NCBI GenBank assembly: GCA_030267965.1
Contig: BRYA01000230.1
Location: forward strand, 1,666-65,665
DNA: 64,000 bases
Origin: Triparma columacea
Lineage: Eukaryota > Sar > Bolidophyceae > Parmales > Triparmaceae
Reading direction: 5' to 3'
In this document: piece by piece, positions 5,513 to 59,200 of the stretch
Position numbering within the stretch: the stretch's first letter is position 1
How the letters are laid out: each line of letters opens with the position of its first letter
Made by a program: the position numbers and the translations under genes
Notes under the pieces: generated by a model
The model's input: the letters and a program-made list of their open reading frames with translations, nothing else
What the model was told of the DNA's origin: nothing
The model's database searches: none

Positions 5513-5548
<36 letters not shown>

Positions 5549-5644
5549 TTGCCCCTGTCCCTGTCCCTGTCCTTGCCCTTGCCCTTGCCCTTGCCCTTGC
5601 CCCCCTTCCTCCTCGCCCGATGTGTCCTCGTCCGATATGTCCGC
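4889..5644. other. Intergenic region with TGTCCC-type hexanucleotide repeat
   Basis: No convincing gene is seen. The stretch separates the start of the WD40-like gene from the stop codon of the DUF285 gene, both on the minus strand. About 4960-5330 is AT-rich. The part next to the DUF285 stop would be its 3' UTR and holds a hexanucleotide tract at 5514-5602. Confidence 0.6.
5514..5602. repeat. Hexanucleotide tandem repeat (TGTCCC, grading into TTGCCC)
   Basis: About fifteen imperfect copies of a 6-bp unit: TGTCCC on the left half, then CTTGCC/TTGCCC. It lies just downstream of the DUF285 stop codon. On the minus strand one frame would read as (RD)n followed by (GK)n, so readthrough or an alternative last splice could add a charged tail. 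There is no evidence for that. Confidence 0.9.
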
Positions 5645-8600
5645 CTACTCTGATGTGCAGTTGTTTTGGCCCTGTACGTACATTCCGGAGCCAGAGGTGG
5701 TACCGGCAGGGCAAGCAATGCATTCTCCGTTTGCGTCGGGTACCAGATCAGTGTCTGGTTGGCCGGAGCTAGTGAACATGGAAGTAAAATAACTAGTGCC
5801 GACTTTGCATATGTTCCAGACTGTGACGTCCTTTTTGAAGTCACTTGCGCTTTTGAACATAGACCTCATGTTATTGACATTAGAGACATCCCAACTCCCA
5901 ATATCCTGGTTGAATTTGTTCGCCTCACTGCGTTGAATTCAATGCCGAGTGGAGATGTGCGAAATGAGATTTGCGTGTGTGTGTGTGAATGTTAGAATGA
6001 GAAGCGAGTGTATTACTTTATATAGAATGCCACAAAGATAACACGCAAATCACAAAGACCTCATCCAAAGCATCACTCAATACTCACTAGAACATATCCT
6101 CCATGCCAGTGACACTTGAGACATCCCAACTCCCAATATCCTGGTTGAAGACAAAAGCGTCACTGCGTTGAAGTTCAATGCCGAGTGGAGATGTGCGAGA
6201 TGAGAATTGCGTGTGCGTGTGTGAGTGTTAGAATGAGAGGCGAGTATATTACTTAAAATACAGAAGTAGAATGCAGCAAAGATAGCACGCAAACAACGAA
6301 GACCTCATCTCAAAAGCATCTCGTAATACTCACCTGAACATTTCAGACATGTCATTGACACTCGAGACATCCCAACTCCCAATATCCTGGTTGAAGACTC
6401 TTGCGCCACTGCGTTCAATAAAATGCCGAGTGGAGATGTGCGAGATGAGATTTGCGTGTGCGTGTGTGAATGTTAGAATGAGAAGCGAGTTACTTAAAAT
6501 AGGATGCAGCAAAGATAACACGCAAACCACAAAGACCTCATCTCCAAAGCATCTCTCAATACTCACTTGAACATTCCATACATGTCAGTGACACTTGAGA
6601 CATCCCAACTCCCAATATTCTGGTTGAAGGAGTCTCCCAAACTGCGTTGAATTAAATGCCGAGTGGAGATGTGCGAGATGAGAATTGCATGTGCGTGTGG
6701 GTGTGCGTGTGTGAATGTTAGAATGAGAAGCGAGTGTAGTGCATTGCTTAAAATAGAATGTAGCAAAGATAGCAAGCAAACCACAAAGATCTCATCTCCA
6801 AAGCATTTCTCAATACTCACAGGAACATAAACTGCATGTTAATGACACTCGAGACATCCCATCCGCTGATATCCTCGTTGAATGTATTCCATTGGTCTGT
6901 ATTTTTGGGTAGGAATGCCCTGTTCATGTCAGTGACATCCCTCGTGCACCTGCTCAGCCGGCGATTTAAGTTGGGTCCGCAGGGGGCAAATTGCCGAGAG
7001 GAGAATATAAGGGTTAGTTGTTACTGGGGGCGGGGGCGGGGCTCGCTTGTTCATCCTCCCGTGATGCTTCGTTGTCCCGTCCTACTTTGTCCGCCTGCCC
7101 ACCACATAGCCCCATCTGCATCCTCTCTATTCGCATGTTCTTCCATCTACTTACCAGTCCGTGATGCTGCCGTATGTGATTGTCGCAAGGGCTTGATTAG
7201 AAAACCAGAGAGCAAGTGCTTTTCTGAAGCTACTATTATCGAGGCTGGGTACTGGGGTGCAAGGGTTTTGGCCCTCTACAAACAATCCTGAGCCAGAAAT
7301 GAAACACACATTAGGGCATTCTATGCATTTTCCGTTAGCGTCGGGTACCAGATCAGTTTCTGGTTGGCCGGAGTCAGTGAACATGGAAGTGAAATCACCC
7401 GTGCCGACTTTGCATATGTTCCAGACTGTGACGTCCTTGTTAAAGAGACTTGTGCCATAGAACATATACCTCATGTCAGTGACATTAGAGACATCCCAAC
7501 TCCCAATATCCTGGTTGAAGGCACTAGCGTAACTGCGTTGAATTCAATGCCGAGTGGAGATGTGGGAGATGAAATTTGCGTGTGCGTGTGTGAGTGTTAG
7601 AATGAGAAGCGAGTATATTACTTTAAATAGAATGCCACAAAGATAACACGCAAACCATGAAGACCTCATCTCCAAAGCATCACTCAATACTCACTAGAAC
7701 ATATATTCCATAGTAGTGACACTCGAGACATCCCAACTCCCAATATCCTGGTTGAAGACTTCTGCCTTACTGCGTTGAATTCAATGCCGAGTGGAGACGT
7801 GCGAGATGAGATTTGTGTGTGCGTGTGTGAGTGTTAGAATGAGAGGCGAGTATATTACTTAAAATAGAATGCCACAAAGATAACACGCAAACCACGAAAA
7901 TCTTCACTCCAAAGCATCTCTCAATACTCACGCGAACATATTAGACATGTCTGTGACACTTGAGACATCCCAACTCCCAATATCCTGGTTAAAGACTTCT
8001 GCCTTACTGCGTTCAATTAAATGCCGAGTGGAGATGTGCGAGATGAGAATTGCGTGTGCGTGTGCGTGTGCGTGTGTGAATGTTAGAATGAGAAGCGAGT
8101 GTAGTGCATTGCTTAAAATAGAATGTAGCAAAGATAGCAAGCAAACCACAAAGATCTCATCTCCAAAGCATTTCTCAATAACTCACTCGAACATAGACTG
8201 CATGTTAATGACACTCGAGACATCCCATCCGCTGATATCCTCGTTGAATGTATTCCATTGGTCTGTATTTTTGGATTCGAATGCCCTGTTCATGTCAGTG
8301 ACATCCCTCGTGCACCTGCTCAGCCGGCGATTTAATTGGGTCCGCAGGGGGCAAATTGCCGAGAGGAGAATATAAGGGTTAGTTGTTACTGGGGGCGGGG
8401 GCGGGGCTCGCTTGTTCATCCTCCCGTGATGCTTCGTTGTCCCGTCCTACTTTGTCCGCCTGCCCACCACATAGCCCCATCTGCATCCTCTCTATTCGCG
8501 TGTTCTTCCATCTACTTACCAGTCCGTGATGCTGCCGTATGTGGTTGTCGCAAGGGCTTGATTAGAAAACCAGAGAGCAAGTGCTTTTCTGAAGCTACTA

Positions 8601-10240
8601 TTATCGAGGCTGGGTACTGGGGTGCAAGGGTTTTGGCCCTCTACGAACAATCCTGAGCCAGAAATGAAACACACATTAGGGCATTCTATGCATTTTCCGT
8701 TAGCGTCGGGTACCAGACTAGCTGATTGTTGGCCGGAGGCAATGAACATGGCATCAAAATATGAGACTTTGCATATATTCCAGCTTGTGACGTCCTTGTT
8801 AAAGGCACTTGCGTGAAAGAACATATACTTCATGTCAGTGACATTAGAGACATCCCAACTCCCAATATCCTGGTTGAAGTCGGTCGCGTAGCTGCGTTGA
8901 ATTCAATGCCGAGTGGAGATGTGCGAGATGAAATTTGCGTGTGCGTGTGTGAATGTTAGAATGAGAAGCGAGTGTATTACTTAATATAGAATGCCACAAA
9001 GATAACACGCAAACCATGAAGACCTCATCTCCAAAGCATCTCTCAATACTCACGCGAACATACCAGACATGTCAGTGACACTCGAGACATCCCAACTCCC
9101 AATATCCTGGTTAAAGACTGCGATACTGCGTTTATTATTTGCATGTGTGAGTGTTAGAATGAGAAGCGAGTGTATTACTTAATATAGAGTGCCACAAAGA
9201 TAACACACAAACCACCAAAACCTTCACTCCAAAGCATCTCTCAATACTCACTCGAACATATCAGACATGTCAGTGACACTCGAGACATTCCAATTCCCAA
9301 TATCCTGATTGAAGACTTCTGCCTTACTGCGTTGAATTCAATGCCGAGTGGAGATGTGCGGGATGAAATTTGCGTGTGCGTGTGTGAATGTTAGAATGAG
9401 AAGCGAGTGTATTACTTAAAATAGAATACAGCAAAGATAGCACGCAAACCACGAAGACCTCATCTCCAAAGCACATCTCAATACTCACGCGAACATAGCC
9501 GTCATGGTAGTTACACTAGAGACATCCCATCCGCTAATGTCCTCGTTGAATGTATATTTGTTTTGGAATGCACTCGACATGTCAGTGACATCCTTCGTGC
9601 ACCTGCTCAGCCGGAGGTTCAATTTAGGTCCGCAGAGGGCGGATTGCCGAGAGGAGAATATGAGGGTTAGTTGTTACTGGGGCTCGCTTGTTCATCCTCC
9701 CGTGATGCTTCGTTGTCCCGTCCTACTTTGTCCGCCTGCCCACCACATAACCCAATCTGCATCTTCTCTACTCGTTCTTCCAACTACTTACCAGTCCTTG
9801 ATGTTGCCGTATTTGCTTGTCGCACTGGTAGAATCAGAAAACCAGGCAGTAAGTGCCGCTCTGAAGGTATCATCGTTGAGGCAGGCTTTCTCAAGAAGAA
9901 GCGCGGGAGTGGGTGCAGGAGTTGGAGCAGGCGTCGGGCTCTCAGCTGGCTGCGGAGTTGTGCTCTTGTTGCCCTTGTTGCCCTTGTTGCCCTTGTTGCC
10001 CTTGTTGCCCTTGTTGCCCTTGTTGCCCTTGCTGGCCTTGTTGCCCTTGTTGCCCTTTTCGCTCTTCTTGCCGTTAGCAAAGATAATGTTGACACTGTCA
10101 CCGATGTCATTACCGCCAAAGGCAAAGTCCTGTAGGCCTCTTGAAGGGGACCTCAGCGATTTGTCAGTGCCATGGCTAGTGATGACGAGGAGTACCAAAA
10201 CTAGCAGCGAAGCAGCGAGCAAAGCGACTAGTGACTTCAT
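5645..10240 (-). CDS. BspA-like (DUF285) repeat surface protein, 14 exons in three cassettes
   Basis: Model: complement(join(5645..5927, 6088..6162, 6334..6408, 6567..6641, 6821..6949, 7155..7532, 7695..7769, 7932..8006, 8187..8315, 8520..8891, 9054..9125, 9252..9326, 9489..9602, 9792..10240)), 791 residues. Exon 1 has a signal peptide, a (GNK)n Gly-every-third-residue tract and a Pro/Thr/Ala linker. Later exons encode the DUF285 unit F-N-x-D-I-x-x-W-D-V-S-x-V-T-x-M-x-x-M-F, known from BspA-like bacterial and protist surface proteins. All 13 introns are phase 2, so every internal exon is symmetric and can be added or lost in frame. Reading into any intron gives a stop at once (G-TGA or G-TAA). 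Two long exons each end one cassette with a Cys-containing segment and begin the next with an 'AL.WFS' helix. Inference: a secreted or surface-attached adhesion or recognition protein; the partner is unknown. Confidence 0.85.
6833..7355. repeat. Segmental duplication, left copy
   Basis: This block of about 520 bp is nearly identical to about 8200-8720, with differences at only a handful of sites. It spans most of a 129-nt exon, the whole following long-type intron and much of a long cassette exon. Similarity at lower identity continues on both sides. Confidence 0.9.
8200..8720. repeat. Segmental duplication, right copy
   Basis: Partner of the block at about 6833-7355. The intron is as conserved as the exons, pointing to recent duplication or gene conversion. 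The two diverge sharply after the shared GTCGGGTACCAGA, where the encoded segment differs between cassettes. Confidence 0.9.
9955..10062 (-). repeat. 9-bp repeat encoding (Gly-Asn-Lys)n
   Basis: About a dozen near-perfect copies of a 9-bp unit (TTGCCCTTG on the plus strand) encode the Gly-Asn-Lys run in exon 1 of the DUF285 gene. Glycine at every third residue recalls collagen-like tracts, but proline is absent from the repeat, so a collagen triple helix is uncertain. Confidence 0.85.
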
Positions 10241-50240: not shown

Positions 50241-53200
50241 ATGGCCCTCACCGCCCGCCACCGCTTCATAATTAACAAGCTTGAGGACGCTCTCCTCCCC
50301 GGCCGTGTAGACCTCGTCGAGGACCTACTCAGAGACGAGGGCATCCTTGCCAGGGTTAACTCACTTTTCAGCCCAGACGGGTTGGACAGGATCATATTCA
50401 CCTACTTCTCACCCGATGACAAAAATATACGTGAGTACGGGGACGGGAAGGGGTGAGGGGCCGACTTGTGGGCCTCAAGGGAATATCGAGGCGTGGTTCA
50501 AATCATTCTAACCCTCCTTCCCCTCCCCCCCCTCCCCCCCTCTCCCCCCTCACGCAGCCGAAATGCCCTCCGAAGAGAAAGAGGAGAAGTCATCGGACTT
50601 CTTCGCTTCTACTGACATAACCTCCTACGCAATGGCGGGGAACATAGAAGTCGGCTGGCTCCTCGTCACCCAGGGGAGCGACATTGCAGTGCAGGGGAGG
50701 GCTGGTAAGAGGAATGGAGGAAAGACGAAATACGACTGATTTACACACAGACCTAACCCCCCTGCCCCCCCCCCCCACCCCACTCCGCCCCCGCCCCGCC
50801 AGTCTTCTTCATGAAGACCAAGGCCAAGCACGGCATCGACCCAACAAAGTCCACCGACTCCTCTATGACCTACGGCGTAATCGACTCCCCCCTCCGCTCC
50901 CTCGAAGTCGTGATGCGCAACCTCTACCGTCCCCTCTTGCAGAACGCCCCCTCCGGAATCTGGGGCAAGGCTACCTCCGAGCAGCAGAACGAGCTCATGA
51001 TCGGGGTGGACAACTTTGTCCACAACCTGGAGGAGAACCTCAAGTCGCTGAACTCGGGCCTGGAGCTCAGGAAGCCCGACCCTTACTTCGAGGGCATGGG
51101 AAATTCGGCGGCGCTCGACCCTAGCGCCGTGAGCCACTACATGGAGCTGCTGGAGGAGTGGTGCACGAGGATTGACAACTACCTGGACGACTCGGACAGG
51201 TCCAGGTGGGAGACGAACGACTCGGGGCCGGACTCGGAGCTCGAGTACTGGAGGAGAAGAATGCAGAGGCTCACGAGCATCACAGACCAGCTCAAGACCC
51301 GGTCATGCAAGAGCGTCATCGGAGTGTTGACTGCCGTGACTAAGAACCCCGAGGAGGTCGCCATCGACAAGCAGCGCGTCTTCTCTCTAGTAAGGCAGTG
51401 GAAGCAGATAGACCTCAACATCACCGAGGCCGCCAACGAGGCCAAGGACAACGTTAAGTACCTCAACACCCTCGAGCGCTTCATCGAGCCTCTTTACTCA
51501 GGGGACCCCGAGATCATAATAGAGATGCTGCCGGCGCTCCTCAATGCGCTCAAGATGGTGCACACTATCGCGAGGTACTTCAACACAACGGAGAGGATGA
51601 CGAAACTGTTCATGAAAATCACCAACCAGATGGTAAACTCGTGCAAGCTGGCGCTCAATGGGAAGAACCCGTCGGACGCTATTTGGGACAGGGACCCGGA
51701 GGAACTCCTGGAGACCCTGGAGAGCTGCCTGAGGCTGAACGAGATGTACCAGGAAGCGTACAGGATGACTAAGGACAAGCTTCTCACCATGCCGAAGGGC
51801 AAGCAGTTTGACTTTTCCGAGACACAAATCTTCGGAAAGTTCGACCTCTTCTGCCGGCGTGTAATCAAACTCATCGACATGTTCTCCAACATCCAGCAGT
51901 TCAAGGCCCTTGCCGAGCACAAGCTCGACGGCATGGCCCCCTTGATCGCCGCCTTCGGGCAGATCATTGAGTACATCAAGTCCAAGGGCCACGACCTCCT
52001 CGACTTCCACAGCAACAAGCTGGACCGCGACTACGTGGAGTTTAATGTTCGCATAGGGGAGCTAGAGGCGAGCCTGCAGGTCTTCATAAACAGGTCCTTC
52101 GAGTCCATCACTTCGATCGAGCAGTCGCTCACGCTCCTCCGCAAGTACCAGTCCATCTTGCACCGCGAGTCCCTCCGCCAGGACCTCGACTCCAAGTTCA
52201 CCGTGATCTTTAACAACTATGGCCTCGAGCTCACCTCCGTCCAGGAGACGTACGAGCACTTTAAGCACAACCCACCCTGCACCAGGAACATGCCCCCGGT
52301 CGCAGGGAACATCATGTGGGCGAGGCATCTGCTCAGGCGCATCGAGGAGGTGAGAAGAGAATAAGAAATGGAAACAGCACGAACAACCAGGAGGCGAGCA
52401 TACTATACTAATGCACCCCCCCTCTCCCCCTCCCCCACCCCCATCCCGCAGCCCATGGAGAACTTCCATGGCAACTCAACCGTGCTCAAGTCCAAGGAGA
52501 GTAAGAAGATCATCAAGACTTACAACAAGGTCGCCCGTACCCTCGTTGCCTTCGAGTATCTCTGGTACGAGGCATGGGTCAAGTCCGTGGAGGCCGCCAA
52601 AGCCGGCCTTCAGGCAACCCTCATTATCCGCCATCCCGACACGGGCAAGCTTTACGTGAATTTCGACCGCGAGATCCTCCAGCTCATCCGCGAGGCCAAG
52701 TGCCTCGCCAGGATAGGCGTGACGGTCCCTGAGTCAGCCCAGATCGTCCTCCTCCAGGAAGAGAAGTTCAAGACTTACTACAACGAACTCAAATATGCGC
52801 TCGACGAGTACGAACGCGTCACCTCTCTGATTGTTCCCGTCGTGGCCAAGGTGAGAACCCAAAACCCCAACTGACAAAAACAATTCAAAATCCCACCAAC
52901 GTGTTCGCTAATCCCCCTTCCCCCCCTTCCTCCTCGCAGCTCCTCAAGCCTCACTTGCAGACCCTCGAGCTCAAACTTCGCCCGGGTATGATCACCCTCA
53001 CGTGGACCTCGATGAACATCGAGTCATACAAGATGCACATCCACGTCGGGCTCCAGCGCCTCGAGGAACTCATCAACAAGATCAACGACATGGTCGAGAA
53101 CCGTATTGAGAAGAACCTTAAGATCATGTCCCGCCTGAATCTCGTTGACCTGCCCAAAGACCGTTCTGTTACACTCGACGACTTCGTCTCCATGCAGGAG

Positions 53201-56200
53201 GCTAATGTTCACATCCAGTCCGAGTTTCTCAAAGCCAAGAACACCGAGGTCGAGAATGCCGTCGAGGACCTCATCTCAATTGTCACCTCCTTCCCTCTCG
53301 ATCCCTCGGTCGGGTCGGTGTCCCGCGAGGAAGTTAGCATCCTGCGTACTCATTACAACAAACTCACATATCGCGCCCTCCTCAACTGTTCCATGACGTC
53401 CCTCGAGTCGGTTAAAAAGCGTGTCTGCGCTCGTGCAGGCTCCGGCTTTTTGTTCGTAGAAAGGCCTTTCTTCGAGGTCGACGTTCAACTCTCGGTTCCC
53501 TCCGTTCGTCTTTCCCCTTCCCTCGACGACGTCCAGCGTGCAATCAACCGCGCCGCCAAGGCGGTCCTCGGTTGCAACAAAATTGTCTACGACTGGGGCC
53601 AGCTGGGCATCCCCGAGGAGGATAGGAAAAGTTTCTTTGTCCAATTGGGCTGCGACCTCAAGATCATAAAGGTCGTCTTGCTCCTAACTGGGGCGCTCTT
53701 TGGGACCAAGAACCAGGTGCACGACTACCTGCAGACGTTCAAGAAGGTGAGACTCGACACAAATGCGACCAGCGCAGTACACAACCATGCGANNNNNNNN
53801 NNNNNNNNNNNNNNNNNNNNNNNNNNNNNNNNNNNNNNNNNNNNNNNNNNCCCACGCAACGTCGCAGTACGACTGGCTGTGGAAGGACGACAAGGAGATT
53901 GCTTACCAGAAGTTCATGGCCGGCAGTCCCAAAATCGAGGATTTTGAAAGTGAGCTGCAAAAGTTCATGGAGGTCGAGAAGGAGATCGAGTTTATCCCCC
54001 CCATGCACAACATTGGGGCCCTCACCCTAAACACGGCCAACCTCAAGCTCCAGCTAAGGAACGAGTCCCGCCAGTGGAAGGTCCAGTACTCCAACAAGGT
54101 TCACGAGCAGGCTAGGGACTCAATGTACGAACTTTTTGAGTACATTCGCGTCACCAATGCCAAACTGTCAATCGAGATTGATGGCCTTGACTCCCTCCGC
54201 AGGGTCATGAACGTCCTGAAGGAGATTAGAGAGCGCGAGTCTTCCATTGAGATGGAAATCAACCCCATCTTAGACATGTATCAGATGCTGGACAACTACC
54301 TTCCTGACGGCGTTGTTGACAAGGAGGAGATTGATCAGAAGTCAATCATGCACAAGGAGTGGGGAAAGCTTGTGGACTACGCCGAAGAGGTCACCGATAA
54401 GCTCGCCGAGATTCAGTTCAAGTACAAGAAGCAGCTCATCGTTGACGTCAAGGAGTTTCGCGTCGACGCCGCTGCCTTCCGCAAGGACTTTGAGGAGAAT
54501 GGACCTGTCTCCGCGGGAATCACCCCCATGGACGCCGTCGAAAAGCTTGCCATTTTCAAGGAAGCCCTCTCCATGCGCGAGCGCAAGATGGAAATGTACA
54601 ATGCCGGAGAGGAACTCTTTGCGCTTCGCCTGTCCGACTTCCCTGACATCAAAAAGACTAAGAACGAGGTTACTTTACTCGATCTCCTTTACACACTGTA
54701 CCTTGACGTGATCGAAACTCTCGATTCATACCGCGTTGTGAACTGGCTCGACCTTGCGGAGAAACTGGAGTCCATGGTTGAAATCACCAACGGCTTTGAC
54801 ATGCGCTGCCGGAAGCTCCCCAAGAAGCTCAAGGAGTGGGAGGCGTATTTGGTCCTCAGGAAGAAGATTACCGACTTTCAGGACATGCTCCCGCTCGTGT
54901 CGGAGCTATCTAAGTCTTCTGTCAAGACCAGACATTGGAGCGAAGTCATCAGTCTCACGGGAACATCCTTCCCATACGATTCGGAGACTTTTGCCCTGGC
55001 AAGCATTCTCGACTCCAACATCCTTGATTTTAAGGAGGAGGTCGAGGAGATCATGGAGGGCGCAGACAAGCAGCTCGGCATCGAGGTCAAGCTAGCTGAC
55101 ATCAAGGAGACTTGGGGTCGCAGGGCTTTCGAGTTTGGTATGTGGAAGGACCGCGGAGTTCACGTCCTCACGGCCTACGGGGCCGCCATCGAGGACCTTG
55201 AGGATGCTCAGCTCCAGTTGCAGACTCTCTTGTCCATGAGGCACGTCGCCCCTTTCAGGGAGGAAGTGCAGGGAAAGCTCACAGAACTTTCCAATACCAC
55301 GGACGAGCTCGAGCTATGGGTCAAGGTCCAAATGATGTGGACTGCCTTAGAATCCGTCTTTATGGGCGGAGACATTGCGAAGCAGATGCCCCTCGAGGCC
55401 AAGAAGTTTAACAAGGTCGACAAGGACTGGATCAAGATCATGCAGAAGGCTGCAGAGACTGGCAACATTGTGGCTTGTTGCAAGAATGACCTCCTTCGCA
55501 ATACCCTTCCCGTCCTTTACGCCGAGCTGGAGAAGTGCCAGAAGAGTTTAGAAGGATACTTGGAGCAGAAGAGGAACAAGTTCCCGAGGTTCTACTTCGT
55601 CTCAAATCCCGTCCTCCTCCTCATCCTCAGTCAAGGGAGCGACCCCCTGCAAATGCAGCCGTACTACGAGAAAGTTTTCGACTCCATCTCCCAGGTCGTC
55701 CACGACCCTAAAGACAAGACGATCATCACGCAAGTCAAGAGCATTTCCGGCTCTAACGAGGAGGTCATTCCCCTGAACGAAAATGTAAGGGCAGTGAACA
55801 ACATTGAGGACTGGCTTGGATCCTTGGAGGACAGGATGCAGAAGTCCCTCAAGGCTCTCTGCGAGACGGCGGCCGCCACCTGCTCGGGCCCCCTTAGAGA
55901 GTTCGTGGACGCACAGTGCGGCCAATTTGCCCTTCTTGGTATCCAGTTCAACTGGACCCTTCAGTGCCAGACTGCCCTCGAGAAGTGCCGGACGTCCAAG
56001 GGCATCATGTCAGAAAACGCAAAGACACAAACGGCGGTGTTGACGGAGCTCTCCTCCTGGTGCCTCCAGGACCTTGGTTCGAAGATGAACCGCACCAAGA
56101 TCGAAACCCTTGTTACGATTCACGTCCACCAGAAGGACGTATTTGTTGACATGGTGAAGTTGTTCAAGGAGAGGAAGATTCAGGACGCCAATGACTTTGA

Positions 56201-59200
56201 GTGGCTCAAGCAGGCCAGGTTCTATTGGAGGCCTAACGTTGAAGACAGGCATGGCCCAGGGGCCTCCATTATCAGTGTATGTGACACCGAATTTAAGTAC
56301 GCCTGGGAGTACCTTGGCTGCAAGGAGAGGTTGGTCATCACTCCCTTGACGGACAGGTGTTACATTACGCTGACCCAGGCCCTCGGCATGTTCCTGGGTG
56401 GCGCCCCTGCTGGCCCCGCGGGAACAGGGAAGACGGAGACCACGAAAGATTTGGGAAGGACTTTGGGCATCTTTGTCGTTGTCACAAACTGGTAAGAAGA
56501 ATAGACGAAAGACGAAGACGAAAGACGACTGATTTACACACAGACCTAACCCCCCTGCCTCCCCTCCCCCCCCTCAACCCAGTACGGATCAGCAGAGGTA
56601 CACCGACATGGCCAAGATATTCAAGGGTCTCTGTCAGGCAGGTCTCTGGGGTTGCTTCGACGAGTTTAACCGTATCGAGCTTCCCGTTCTGTCCGTCGTC
56701 GCGCAGCAGGTCCTCTCCATCACCAACGCGAAGCGCACGTCCGCGAAGACCTTCACGTTCCCAGGCGACTCTCAGGTCGTAAGCCTTAACCCTGACGTCG
56801 GCTATTTCATAACTATGAACCCTGGCTACGCGGGGAGGCAGGAGTTGCCCGAGAACCTCAAGGCTCTCTTCCGTGGAGTTACCATGATGGTCCCCGACCG
56901 CCAGATAATCATGAAGGTTAAGCTCTGCTCCGTGGGATACAGCACGTTCGTCGAGCTTGCACGCAAGTTCAATGTCCTCTACCGCCTCTGCGAGCAGCAG
57001 CTGTCGAAGCAGAAGCACTACGACTTTGGCCTTAGGAACATCCTTTCGGTCCTCCGTACTGCTGGGGCTACCAAGAGGCAGAACTTGAAGGAGGATGAAG
57101 AAGTCCTTGTTTTGCGCACGTTGCGCGACATGAACCTCTCTAAGCTGGTCTCCCAGGACATTCCACTCTTCCTATCTCTTCTCTCCGATCTCTTCCCGAA
57201 CATCACCATGCCCGCCTCGGGCACCGACGCGGAGATGGAGGAGGCCATCACTGCGGTTGTGAAGAAGAACAAGCTCATTCATCACCCTTCATGGATCCTC
57301 AAGAACATGCAGCTGTACGACACCACCAAGGTCAGGCACGGCATCATGCTCGTGGGTCCTGCCGGTTCCGGAAAGTCCGCCATCATCAATACTCTCTCCG
57401 ATTCCCTTGCAGCCATTACCAAGATCCAGCACAAGAGGGTCGCGATGAACCCCAAGGCCATCAGGGCCGAGGAGATGTTTGGGGAGACGGACAAGCTGAG
57501 CGGAGAGTGGAATACAGGAATCTTTGCCGCCATCTGGCAAAAGTACAACAACAGGAACAACGCCTACAATACGTGGGTAATCGCCGACGGTCCTGTCGAT
57601 GCTATCTGGATCGAGAACCTCAACACCGTCTTGGACGATAACAAGATCCTTACCTTGGCAAATGGTGACCGCATCCCCATGACTGACAATGTCAAGATAA
57701 TGTTCGAGGTCGAGGATTTGCGCAATGCGTCCCCAGCTACGGTATCCCGCGCCGGAATTATTTACGTCTCGGCCAGCGACCTGGATTGGGCTCCCGTTGT
57801 CGAGGCTTGGTGCAACACCTTGGTGGAGGGAGGGTACAAGCAGACTTTCACCGACCTCTTCAAGAAGTTTGTCGGGGTTAGCGAAGGTGACAGGGAGGTC
57901 GGTCATATCTTTAGATTCATCCAGAAGATGTGCAACCAGGTTATGAAGCTTAGCCGGGTCGCTATGGCGACCAAGACCTTCGAGCTCATCACCAGCATGC
58001 TCAAGACTGCGGAGCTCAGTGAGTCCCCCGATGACCGCAGCTCCGAGCTCGAGCGCCTTTTCCTTTTCGCTCTGGTTTGGGGGATCGGCGGAATGTTCGA
58101 GGAGGAGGACAGGATGAAGTTCGACGAATACCTCAGGGAATACAGCGACAACATGCCAAAGAAGGTCGACGCGAGTGATAACGTTTACATGTACAATGTC
58201 AACCTCGAGACTATGGAGTGGGAGCGATGGGAGGCCCCCAGCTGGAGCTACCCCACCCACAGCGAAGAACTTGACTTCAGCACCCTGCTCATTCCGACCG
58301 TGGATAGCACGAGGGCGATCTTCTTGATGGACAACTTTTTCCGCATGAAGAAGCCCGTTCTACTTTGCGGTGGCAGCGGAACAAGTAAGACTAGCACTGC
58401 TGAGATGTTCTTCGATGGTTTGGACAGGGACAGGATGCTTGTGAAGAGGGTGAACTTCTCGTTTGCCACCACTCCTTCAATGTTCCAGAGTAGCATTGAC
58501 GGCGAGCTCGACAAGAGGGGTGGAAAGAACTTTGGGCCACCTAGCGGTAAGACCATGACTGTGTTCCTCGACGACATGAGCATGCCTCAGGTCAACACTT
58601 GGGGTGATCAGACAACCAACGAGCTTGTGAGGCAGCTCATCGAGAACAAAGGGTACTGCTTCCTGGACAAGGACAAGCGTGGGGACTTCAAGATAATTGA
58701 GGATCTGTTCTTCGTGGGCGCCATGAACCACCCCTCCGGCGGCAAGAACGACATCCCCAACAGGCTAAAGCGCCATTTCTTTGCATTCAACATGACCGTA
58801 CCTCCCGTCCAGACCATCCTCAACATTTATGGACAGATGATCGACGGAAGGTTCCCCAAAGCTCAATTTTCCGAGGGGATCCAGCAGTACGCCGGAAAGA
58901 TCCCCACTCTCACGATTGAATTGTGGAAGTTTGTCAGGCAGAAAATGCTTCCCAGCCCCGCCAAGTTTATGTACGTTTGGAACATGAGGGAGTTAGCCAG
59001 GATCTTCCAGGGCATCCTGAGGACCCCCAAGGCTAGCATTGGAAGCGAAGAAGTGCTTGGGTCTCTTTGGAGGCACGAATGCATGAGAGTTTTCTGTGAC
59101 AAGCTTGCGAACAAGGCTGACAAGGACATGTTCATGGCCGAGATTGACAGGGTGACTGGCATCATGGTCTCTGAGGCTCCCTTGGAGAGCTTGCTCGACT

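Follow-up and report, generated by a model that had tools for sequence, protein, structure and literature searches.

A Triparma columacea gene of repeated DUF285 exon-intron units as a putative member of a recombining gene family

The 64,000-nt stretch of the alga Triparma columacea analyzed here (GenBank assembly GCA_030267965.1, contig BRYA01000230.1, forward-strand positions 1,666 to 65,665; hereafter the window, whose own numbering is used below) contains on its minus strand a gene made of repeated exon-plus-intron units that encode DUF285 repeats. We favor, with a probability of roughly two in three, the reading that this gene belongs, as a single locus, to a large and dispersed family of LRR-like solenoid proteins with DUF285 repeats, secreted or at the surface, whose interchangeable exon-plus-intron units form a recombining pool under diversifying selection. 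Ectopic gene conversion and unequal exchange would mix units among loci, long near-identical introns would supply homology for exchange and render breakpoints harmless, and selection for new binding faces would drive the variation of a few codons per repeat (1, 3, 4, 21, 22, and the one interrupted by the intron). The proteins may serve as recognition or adhesion molecules toward prey bacteria, viruses, or other cells, recognition being probably their function.

Gene model and genome-wide family

The gene runs from 10240 to 5645 on the minus strand and comprises 14 exons and 13 introns, every intron in phase 2. Acceptors compatible with phase 2 and an open reading frame were enumerated, and the chosen exons were then spliced in silico; the splicing is predicted from frame, splice consensus, and conservation. 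The joined coding sequence of 2376 nt encodes 791 amino acids plus a stop, with no internal stop codon. This frame-checked, uninterrupted reconstruction agrees with an earlier note, made from the letters of the window alone, as to the thirteen phase-2 introns and the exon lengths. From 5′ to 3′, the parts of the gene are as follows.

9792-10240, minus: exon 1, hydrophobic N terminus, (GNK)n, Pro/Thr-rich linker, and cassette head, 449 nt
9603-9791, minus: intron 1, family B, phase 2, 189 nt
9489-9602, minus: exon 2, opener, 114 nt
9327-9488, minus: intron 2, family A, 162 nt
9252-9326, minus: exon 3, single DUF285 repeat, 75 nt
9126-9251, minus: intron 3, family A with internal deletion, 126 nt
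9054-9125, minus: exon 4, single DUF285 repeat, 72 nt
8892-9053, minus: intron 4, family A, 162 nt
8520-8891, minus: exon 5, closer and next cassette head, 372 nt
8316-8519, minus: intron 5, family B, 204 nt
8187-8315, minus: exon 6, opener, 129 nt
8007-8186, minus: intron 6, family A, 180 nt
7932-8006, minus: exon 7, single DUF285 repeat, 75 nt
7770-7931, minus: intron 7, family A, 162 nt, used as genome-search query
7695-7769, minus: exon 8, single DUF285 repeat, 75 nt
7533-7694, minus: intron 8, family A, 162 nt
7155-7532, minus: exon 9, closer and next cassette head, 378 nt
6950-7154, minus: intron 9, family B, 205 nt
6821-6949, minus: exon 10, opener, 129 nt, differing from exon 6 at variable codons only
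6642-6820, minus: intron 10, family A, 179 nt
6567-6641, minus: exon 11, single DUF285 repeat, 75 nt
6409-6566, minus: intron 11, family A, 158 nt
6334-6408, minus: exon 12, single DUF285 repeat, 75 nt
6163-6333, minus: intron 12, family A, 171 nt
6088-6162, minus: exon 13, single DUF285 repeat, 75 nt
5928-6087, minus: intron 13, family A, 160 nt
5645-5927, minus: exon 14, final closer and stop codon, 283 nt

The predicted protein begins with a hydrophobic N-terminal stretch, followed by a GNK repeat, a Pro/Thr linker, and three cassettes. Judged by eye, the N-terminal stretch looks like a signal peptide, which would place the protein outside the cell or at its surface. A Pfam scan matched DUF285/BspA-like (PF03382) in six stretches with 530.6 bits, far above the gathering cutoff of 25. 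The eight Pfam families listed for the protein (E values up to 1) include no leucine-rich repeat (LRR) family, no ROC-COR domain, and no WD40 repeat; the Collagen match on the GNK stretch of exon 1 is subthreshold. That stretch is encoded by a nine-base repeat at 9961-10072 and is collagen-like, and a hexanucleotide-type repeat (CTGTCC/CTTGCC) at 5513-5602 begins about 40 bases past the stop codon. For residues 284 to 375 (the closer/head module), none of 74 candidates, limited to 0.55 to 1.75 times 791 amino acids and to shared 5-mers, matched at an E value of ≤0.001.

The introns fall into the two families that the earlier note had recognized, ten of family A (GTGAGT...CGCAG) and three of family B (GTAAGT...GAGCAG). 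They are not merely as similar to each other as the exons, as had been stated, but more alike, with a mean identity of 0.898 for A and 0.951 for B compared with 0.822 for the 72- and 75-nt exons. Their lengths differ by non-multiples of three. Units follow the order of a B intron with an opener, then n copies of an A intron with a 75-nt repeat exon, and finally an A intron with a closer.

The whole assembly (37.85 Mb, 789 contigs) was searched with both intron families, as the earlier note had proposed, and the gene proved not to be single, since array-type matches turned up on 41 contigs. DUF285 itself gave at least 195 matches (150 of 571 candidates scored), the intron A query at least 224 (40 of 84 candidates scored), and the intron B query at least 40 (40 of 58 candidates scored). 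An 18-base core of intron A occurs, with at most one mismatch, at 332 places, while the reversed control occurs nowhere; as 209 of the 223 known A copies contain this core, the genome likely holds about 350 copies of intron A. We read 35 of the 41 contigs, that is, all except C51, C244, C314, C393, C440, and C485 (C51, C440, and C485 each have one listed array-type match). The 68 loci analyzed for the introns, not counting five in the window contig, merge into 40 segments, 33 of which, plus the window, carry the introns. The 34 segments contain 231 A and 40 B intron matches, and 263 of these 271 were kept after refinement of their borders.

Of the 217 exons of ≤240 nt between introns, 216 are multiples of three and 215 of these are also open; the stop-bearing one lies in C272, and the lone exception to the rule of three is a border misplacement at intron 3 of the window gene, where the true length is 72 nt. 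Together with phase-2 symmetry, these lengths confirm that cassette units can be gained or lost without a change of frame. Exactly 75 nt is the length of 163 short exons, although fused and odd-length exons are also present. All 40 B introns are followed by an opener, which is 114 nt long in 36 cases, 129 nt long in 2, and part of a fused exon (864 and 879 nt) in 2. It had also been claimed that retention of any intron creates a stop codon at the junction. This is true of all 263 refined introns, but the idea of a special design was dropped, because every phase-2 intron whose donor reads GTRAG or GTAGG yields such a stop automatically. Several arrays (on C2, C272, C423, C485, C577, C703, and others) sit within about 1.2 kb of contig ends, and array copy number is therefore probably underestimated. 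In the C580 segment, a long coding insert rich in Pro, Thr, Ala, and Ser splits a DUF285 repeat within a 321-nt exon.

Mixing of units and variation at set codons

Identity is nearly the same within and between segments (0.805 versus 0.800 for exons, 0.897 versus 0.890 for introns). Linkage was analyzed in the A introns of exactly 162 nt, which number 129 of 223. Where the minor frequency is ≥0.08, r2 is 0.18 at a distance of 1 base, 0.025 at 2 to 3 bases, and 0.009 to 0.019 at 4 to 30 bases; where it is ≥0.2, r2 beyond 30 bp is 0.0075, compared with a 1/n of 0.0078 (12 sites, 42 pairs). By comparison, 150 genealogies simulated with no recombination, under conditions ranging from constant size to extreme growth, never gave an r2 below 0.02; their diversity of 0.088 to 0.099 was somewhat under the observed 0.109. 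Two-allele transversions make up 8 of the 12 intermediate-frequency sites and argue for shared descent and recombination and not for recurrent mutation. Across 54 full intron-exon-intron units, r2 is near the permuted level beyond about 40 bases. Neighboring variable codons share mutual information (z of 4.7 for codons 1 and 3, 6.3 for codons 21 and 22), while none was detected between the left (1, 3, 4) and right (21, 22) codon groups (z of −1.0 to 1.2). Among openers, three left haplotypes recur, each with differing right halves. Identical runs of ≥100 bases are shared by 7 intron pairs, against 0.3 expected; therefore, some copying is recent. By these measures and the codon variation described next, the repeats behave as one recombining pool under apparently strong diversifying selection, in which mixing is incomplete. 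The earlier suggestion that the architecture serves diversification by recombination is thus supported, beyond what the window offered, by family-wide linkage and by identity within and between loci.

All 162 stop-free 75-nt exons are distinct, and they encode 161 distinct peptides. Amino acid entropy reaches 3.3 to 3.6 bits at codons 1, 3, 21, and 22, 2.2 bits at codon 4, and 2.0 bits at codon 19, and is at most 1.1 bits elsewhere. At several variable codons, base entropy is near its maximum in the first two positions; the mean over intron sites is 0.33 bit. The codon split by the intron varies as well, with 13 of the 16 dinucleotides occurring at exon ends. As the following exon starts with T in 156 of 162 cases, junction codons are mostly NNT, a form that never encodes a stop.

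The wobble bases of the same codons are largely site specific. Tyrosine is encoded by TAC/TAT in ratios of 17/4, 0/34, 1/11, and 1/32 at codons 1, 3, 21, and 22, respectively, and glutamate by GAG/GAA in ratios of 11/2, 1/29, 14/1, and 2/5, while glycine is GGC in 25 of 26 cases at codon 1, GGG in 12 of 12 at codon 21, and GGT in 22 of 30 at codon 22. Codon bias alone is insufficient to explain this pattern, because a single exon can show opposite preferences at different codons. Local ancestry is retained at silent sites, whereas amino acid-changing sites of the same codons are near saturation. The proportion of differences is 0.62 at nonsynonymous sites (pN) and 0.32 at synonymous sites (pS) in the variable codons, compared with 0.05 and 0.20 elsewhere; the bootstrap range of pN/pS is 1.75 to 2.15. 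Where two exons have the same amino acid at codon 1, 3, 21, or 22, the codon differs in 8 to 21% of pairs, and intron divergence is 11%. The difference at variable sites is flat, at 0.52 to 0.60, for intron divergence from 0.04 upward. In the closest pair of 75-nt exons (C78 and C559, flanking introns 0.022 apart), 0 of 17 variable and 0 of 55 other sites differ, codon 19 being excluded. Openers 6 and 10 of the window gene are otherwise near identical, and the differences between them could be due to selection or to short conversion.

Repeats from other contexts served as controls. Wobble identity is 0.795 in 82 repeats from closers and from fused and odd-length exons of the same loci, compared with 0.895 in the 75-nt exons, while identity at the variable codons is alike (0.433 and 0.441, respectively). 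At 12 loci without these introns, 103 DUF285 repeats (67 from L070 and L072, one from L071, and none from L073) are most variable at positions 1, 2, 4, 21, 22, and 25, nearly the same positions as in the arrays, the shift being due in part to the many repeats of 72 nt. In 1279 motif-matching repeats of database homologues, the most variable positions are 1, 3, 4, 21, 22, and 25. Variability itself is thus a property of the fold, and what is special here is the homogeneity of the DNA around it. Among the DUF285 genes without these introns (L069, L070, L072, and L002 to L006), some have 72-nt repeats and partly site-specific wobble bases.

A structure model of a homologue, P0120 (not of the window protein), is a confident solenoid. 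In all 12 of its repeats, DSSP assigns a strand residue to position 19, immediately ahead of variable codons 21 and 22. In a comparison by VIA-align, LRR proteins take the first rank. A Foldseek search of the PDB gave no match at an E value of ≤0.001. The order of strand and codons, as distinct from coordinates, suggests one shared face for the variable residues.

Intron A in unrelated genes

As a solitary copy, intron A was found in at least four unrelated genes.

C92 (L084): START-like gene, subthreshold; full-length 165-nt intron, phase 2; 846 amino acids open across the junction
C403 (L087): Rieske gene, 78 bits; 118-nt intron, phase 1; 534 amino acids open
C263 (L085): no Pfam match; 117-nt intron, phase 1; 394 amino acids open with one of several open acceptors
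C39 (L083): 132-nt intron, assigned to phase 0 by inspection alone; downstream frame short

Like introners, intron A occurs as a near-identical intron lying in frame in unrelated genes. Its presence in four unrelated genes indicates that it moved as an intron, and it has probably been gained in at least four such genes. The copies in C39 and C403 share one end point inside the element (CTCGCAG). By eye, the four flanks have no obvious target site duplication or terminal inverted repeats. The four copies are those that fit either the donor patterns, which catch 173 of the 223 array introns, or the core, which catches 209 of them and for which the first 100 of the 332 places were covered, so that a few solitary copies may be missed; C113, C189, and C370 proved on inspection to be DUF285 arrays. 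No intron B was found outside arrays by a donor-context pattern whose donor part fits 34 of the 40 known B introns: its two matches, on C78 and C686, are both on array contigs, and 2 of the 40 B matches (C51 and C440) are on contigs outside those read.

It is tempting to assume that mobile intron A once lodged in a DUF285 repeat, that the resulting unit multiplied, and that the shared introns became recombination handles through which one-repeat exons in their hundreds stay interchangeable, under diversifying selection on exposed residues. We consider this fuller scenario less likely than not. If it is true, a single-celled alga would possess an intron-based means of receptor diversification, one perhaps at work within clonal lineages.

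Alternatives and known parallels

Several observations weigh against a freely mixing, intron-dependent pool. Adjacent introns are slightly more alike (0.907, 60 pairs) than introns of different loci (0.890), and the nearest neighbor of an intron lies in the same locus in 15 of 129 cases, against 3.7 expected, a count reached in 7 of 500 label shuffles. In the 54 full units, r2 at 11 to 20 bp is 0.031, above the permuted 0.018. Openers whose left halves are nearly equal have a common right half in 2 of 12 pairs, compared with 13 of 630 for all pairs; where exons have identical left codons, the right ones coincide in 2 of 54 pairs, compared with 1.45%. Wobble preferences have exceptions (lysine AAG 5/AAA 8 at codon 3 and AAG 3/AAA 0 at codon 22; aspartate GAC 2/GAT 3 at codon 3). 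The pS of the variable codons exceeds the intron divergence of 0.11, in part because Nei-Gojobori paths mix changes in such codons, and codon 19 was left out of the closest-pair comparison. Arrays often lie at contig ends, some with gaps, so that some units may be chimeric; joins that need long shared words would not be expected to erase linkage at 5 to 30 bases, although assembly chimeras could add mixing. Finally, as mostly the same positions vary in genes without the introns and in database homologues, the introns are not needed for variability, part of which may be plain tolerance at exposed sites.

A burst in which one unit recently multiplied by tandem and segmental duplication, with no continuing exchange among loci, would account for introns about 89% alike, for the few near-identical blocks (cassettes 2 and 3 of the window gene; C78 and C559), for the excess of long identical intron runs, and for the slight local similarity of introns, yet it sits badly with intermediate-frequency two-allele sites near linkage equilibrium and with copies that differ nearly as much within a locus as between loci; we consider it improbable. 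Flat identity within and between loci and the constant length of 162 nt in so many A introns could also be found in old paralogues whose introns are kept alike by purifying selection on the intron sequence. Two-allele transversion sites with few third alleles, shortened copies that remain intron-like (intron 3 of the window gene and the solitary copies in C263 and C403), and wobble bases unsaturated even in the variable codons make this very unlikely. Nor do we give more than slight credence to targeted hypermutation of the variable codons, for example, by a diversity-generating system: it would fit their near-maximal base entropy and the clustered changes between openers 6 and 10, but the same codons seldom change silently at the third position, such changes being site specific, and the most recent exon pair, albeit one pair only, has no variable-site difference.

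Two further alternatives, both unlikely though less so than those above, concern how variants arise and what the proteins do. (Here and below, comparisons draw on excerpts of the cited reports.) Variants might come mainly from alternative splicing, as the earlier note also allowed, or from somatic recombination within a cell line. The units are symmetric, so that skipping preserves the frame, and brown-algal LRR exons of the same design are reported to be alternatively spliced (PMC11378527); mixing over generations, however, already accounts for the data. The proteins might instead be structural or ice-binding solenoids, as a diatom study noted an antifreeze-like solenoid shape and high-latitude abundance for DUF285 (PMC11992049), but extreme variability at set positions of each repeat is the reverse of what a regularly repeating binding face would show. 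A few residues near saturation within a homogenized frame point to recognition and name the residues of interest. Parmaleans are predicted to be phago-mixotrophs (PMC10328945), which makes recognition of prey or of partners a reasonable starting hypothesis; escape from viruses or predators, mating recognition, and ice binding may also be considered.

The exon design itself is already known, according to the excerpts, from Tetrahymena and brown algae. Like the arrays described here, Tetrahymena LRR exons have uniform lengths, phase-2 introns, scattering among loci by ectopic recombination, and species-specific expansion (PMC6564038). They differ in their 90-bp LRR, compared with the 75-nt DUF285 repeat, and in an association with a REP retrotransposon; the arrays differ in turn in having two intron families that mark cassette position, near linkage equilibrium, and site-specific wobble bases at hypervariable codons. 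The Tetrahymena authors wrote that their design may have arisen only once (PMC6564038). Brown-algal LRR-ROCO genes, also from a stramenopile alga, share one repeat per 72-bp phase-2 exon, exon shuffling, and positively selected exposed sites (PMC11378527), but they encode ROC-COR GTPase domains and true LRRs, whereas the arrays are distinguished by intron homogeneity and mobile intron copies. In Podospora HNWD/NWD genes, repeats are likewise exchanged within and between loci, and diversifying selection acts on four residues per repeat while the remainder is homogenized (PMC1805685); these are WD40 beta-propellers in NOD-like receptors (NLRs), and the excerpt on their WD repeat arrays mentions no intron between repeats. 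Introners share with intron A the occurrence of similar introns in unrelated genes (PMC9860276), although for intron A only four copies were found outside arrays, nearly all copies found adjoin DUF285 exons, and no target site duplication is obvious. The family thus combines uniform-length exons bearing phase-2 introns with exchange of units between loci, as in other cases of phase-2 repeat-exon shuffling. We found no report of DUF285 exon shuffling, or of introners in Parmales, in the literature surveyed, in which subscription journals were mostly outside coverage.

In diatom metatranscriptomes, DUF285 is reported to be the one domain of unknown function to rank in the top 100 Pfam families, and it has been called enigmatic (PMC11992049); a family from an alga of the Parmales, the sister group of diatoms, bears on it. 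In the genome searched, a papain-family protein has its best named match, at 77%, in Triparma strigata, in keeping with this placement. The arrays also offer a natural case for studying introns that favor exon exchange, mobile introns that seed modular genes, and recognition repertoires in single-celled eukaryotes. Outside these algae, an Aureococcus giant virus is reported to have a large, repetitive, DUF285-rich region (PMC10720644, PMC5917014) amounting to about two-thirds of its genome (PMC10720644).

Elsewhere in the window, a 60-nt tandem repeat (3.2 copies, 95% matches) lies at 969-1158. Pieces of dynein heavy chain at 50811-56495, one with a subthreshold axonemal coiled-coil match, suggest a flagellum at some life stage.

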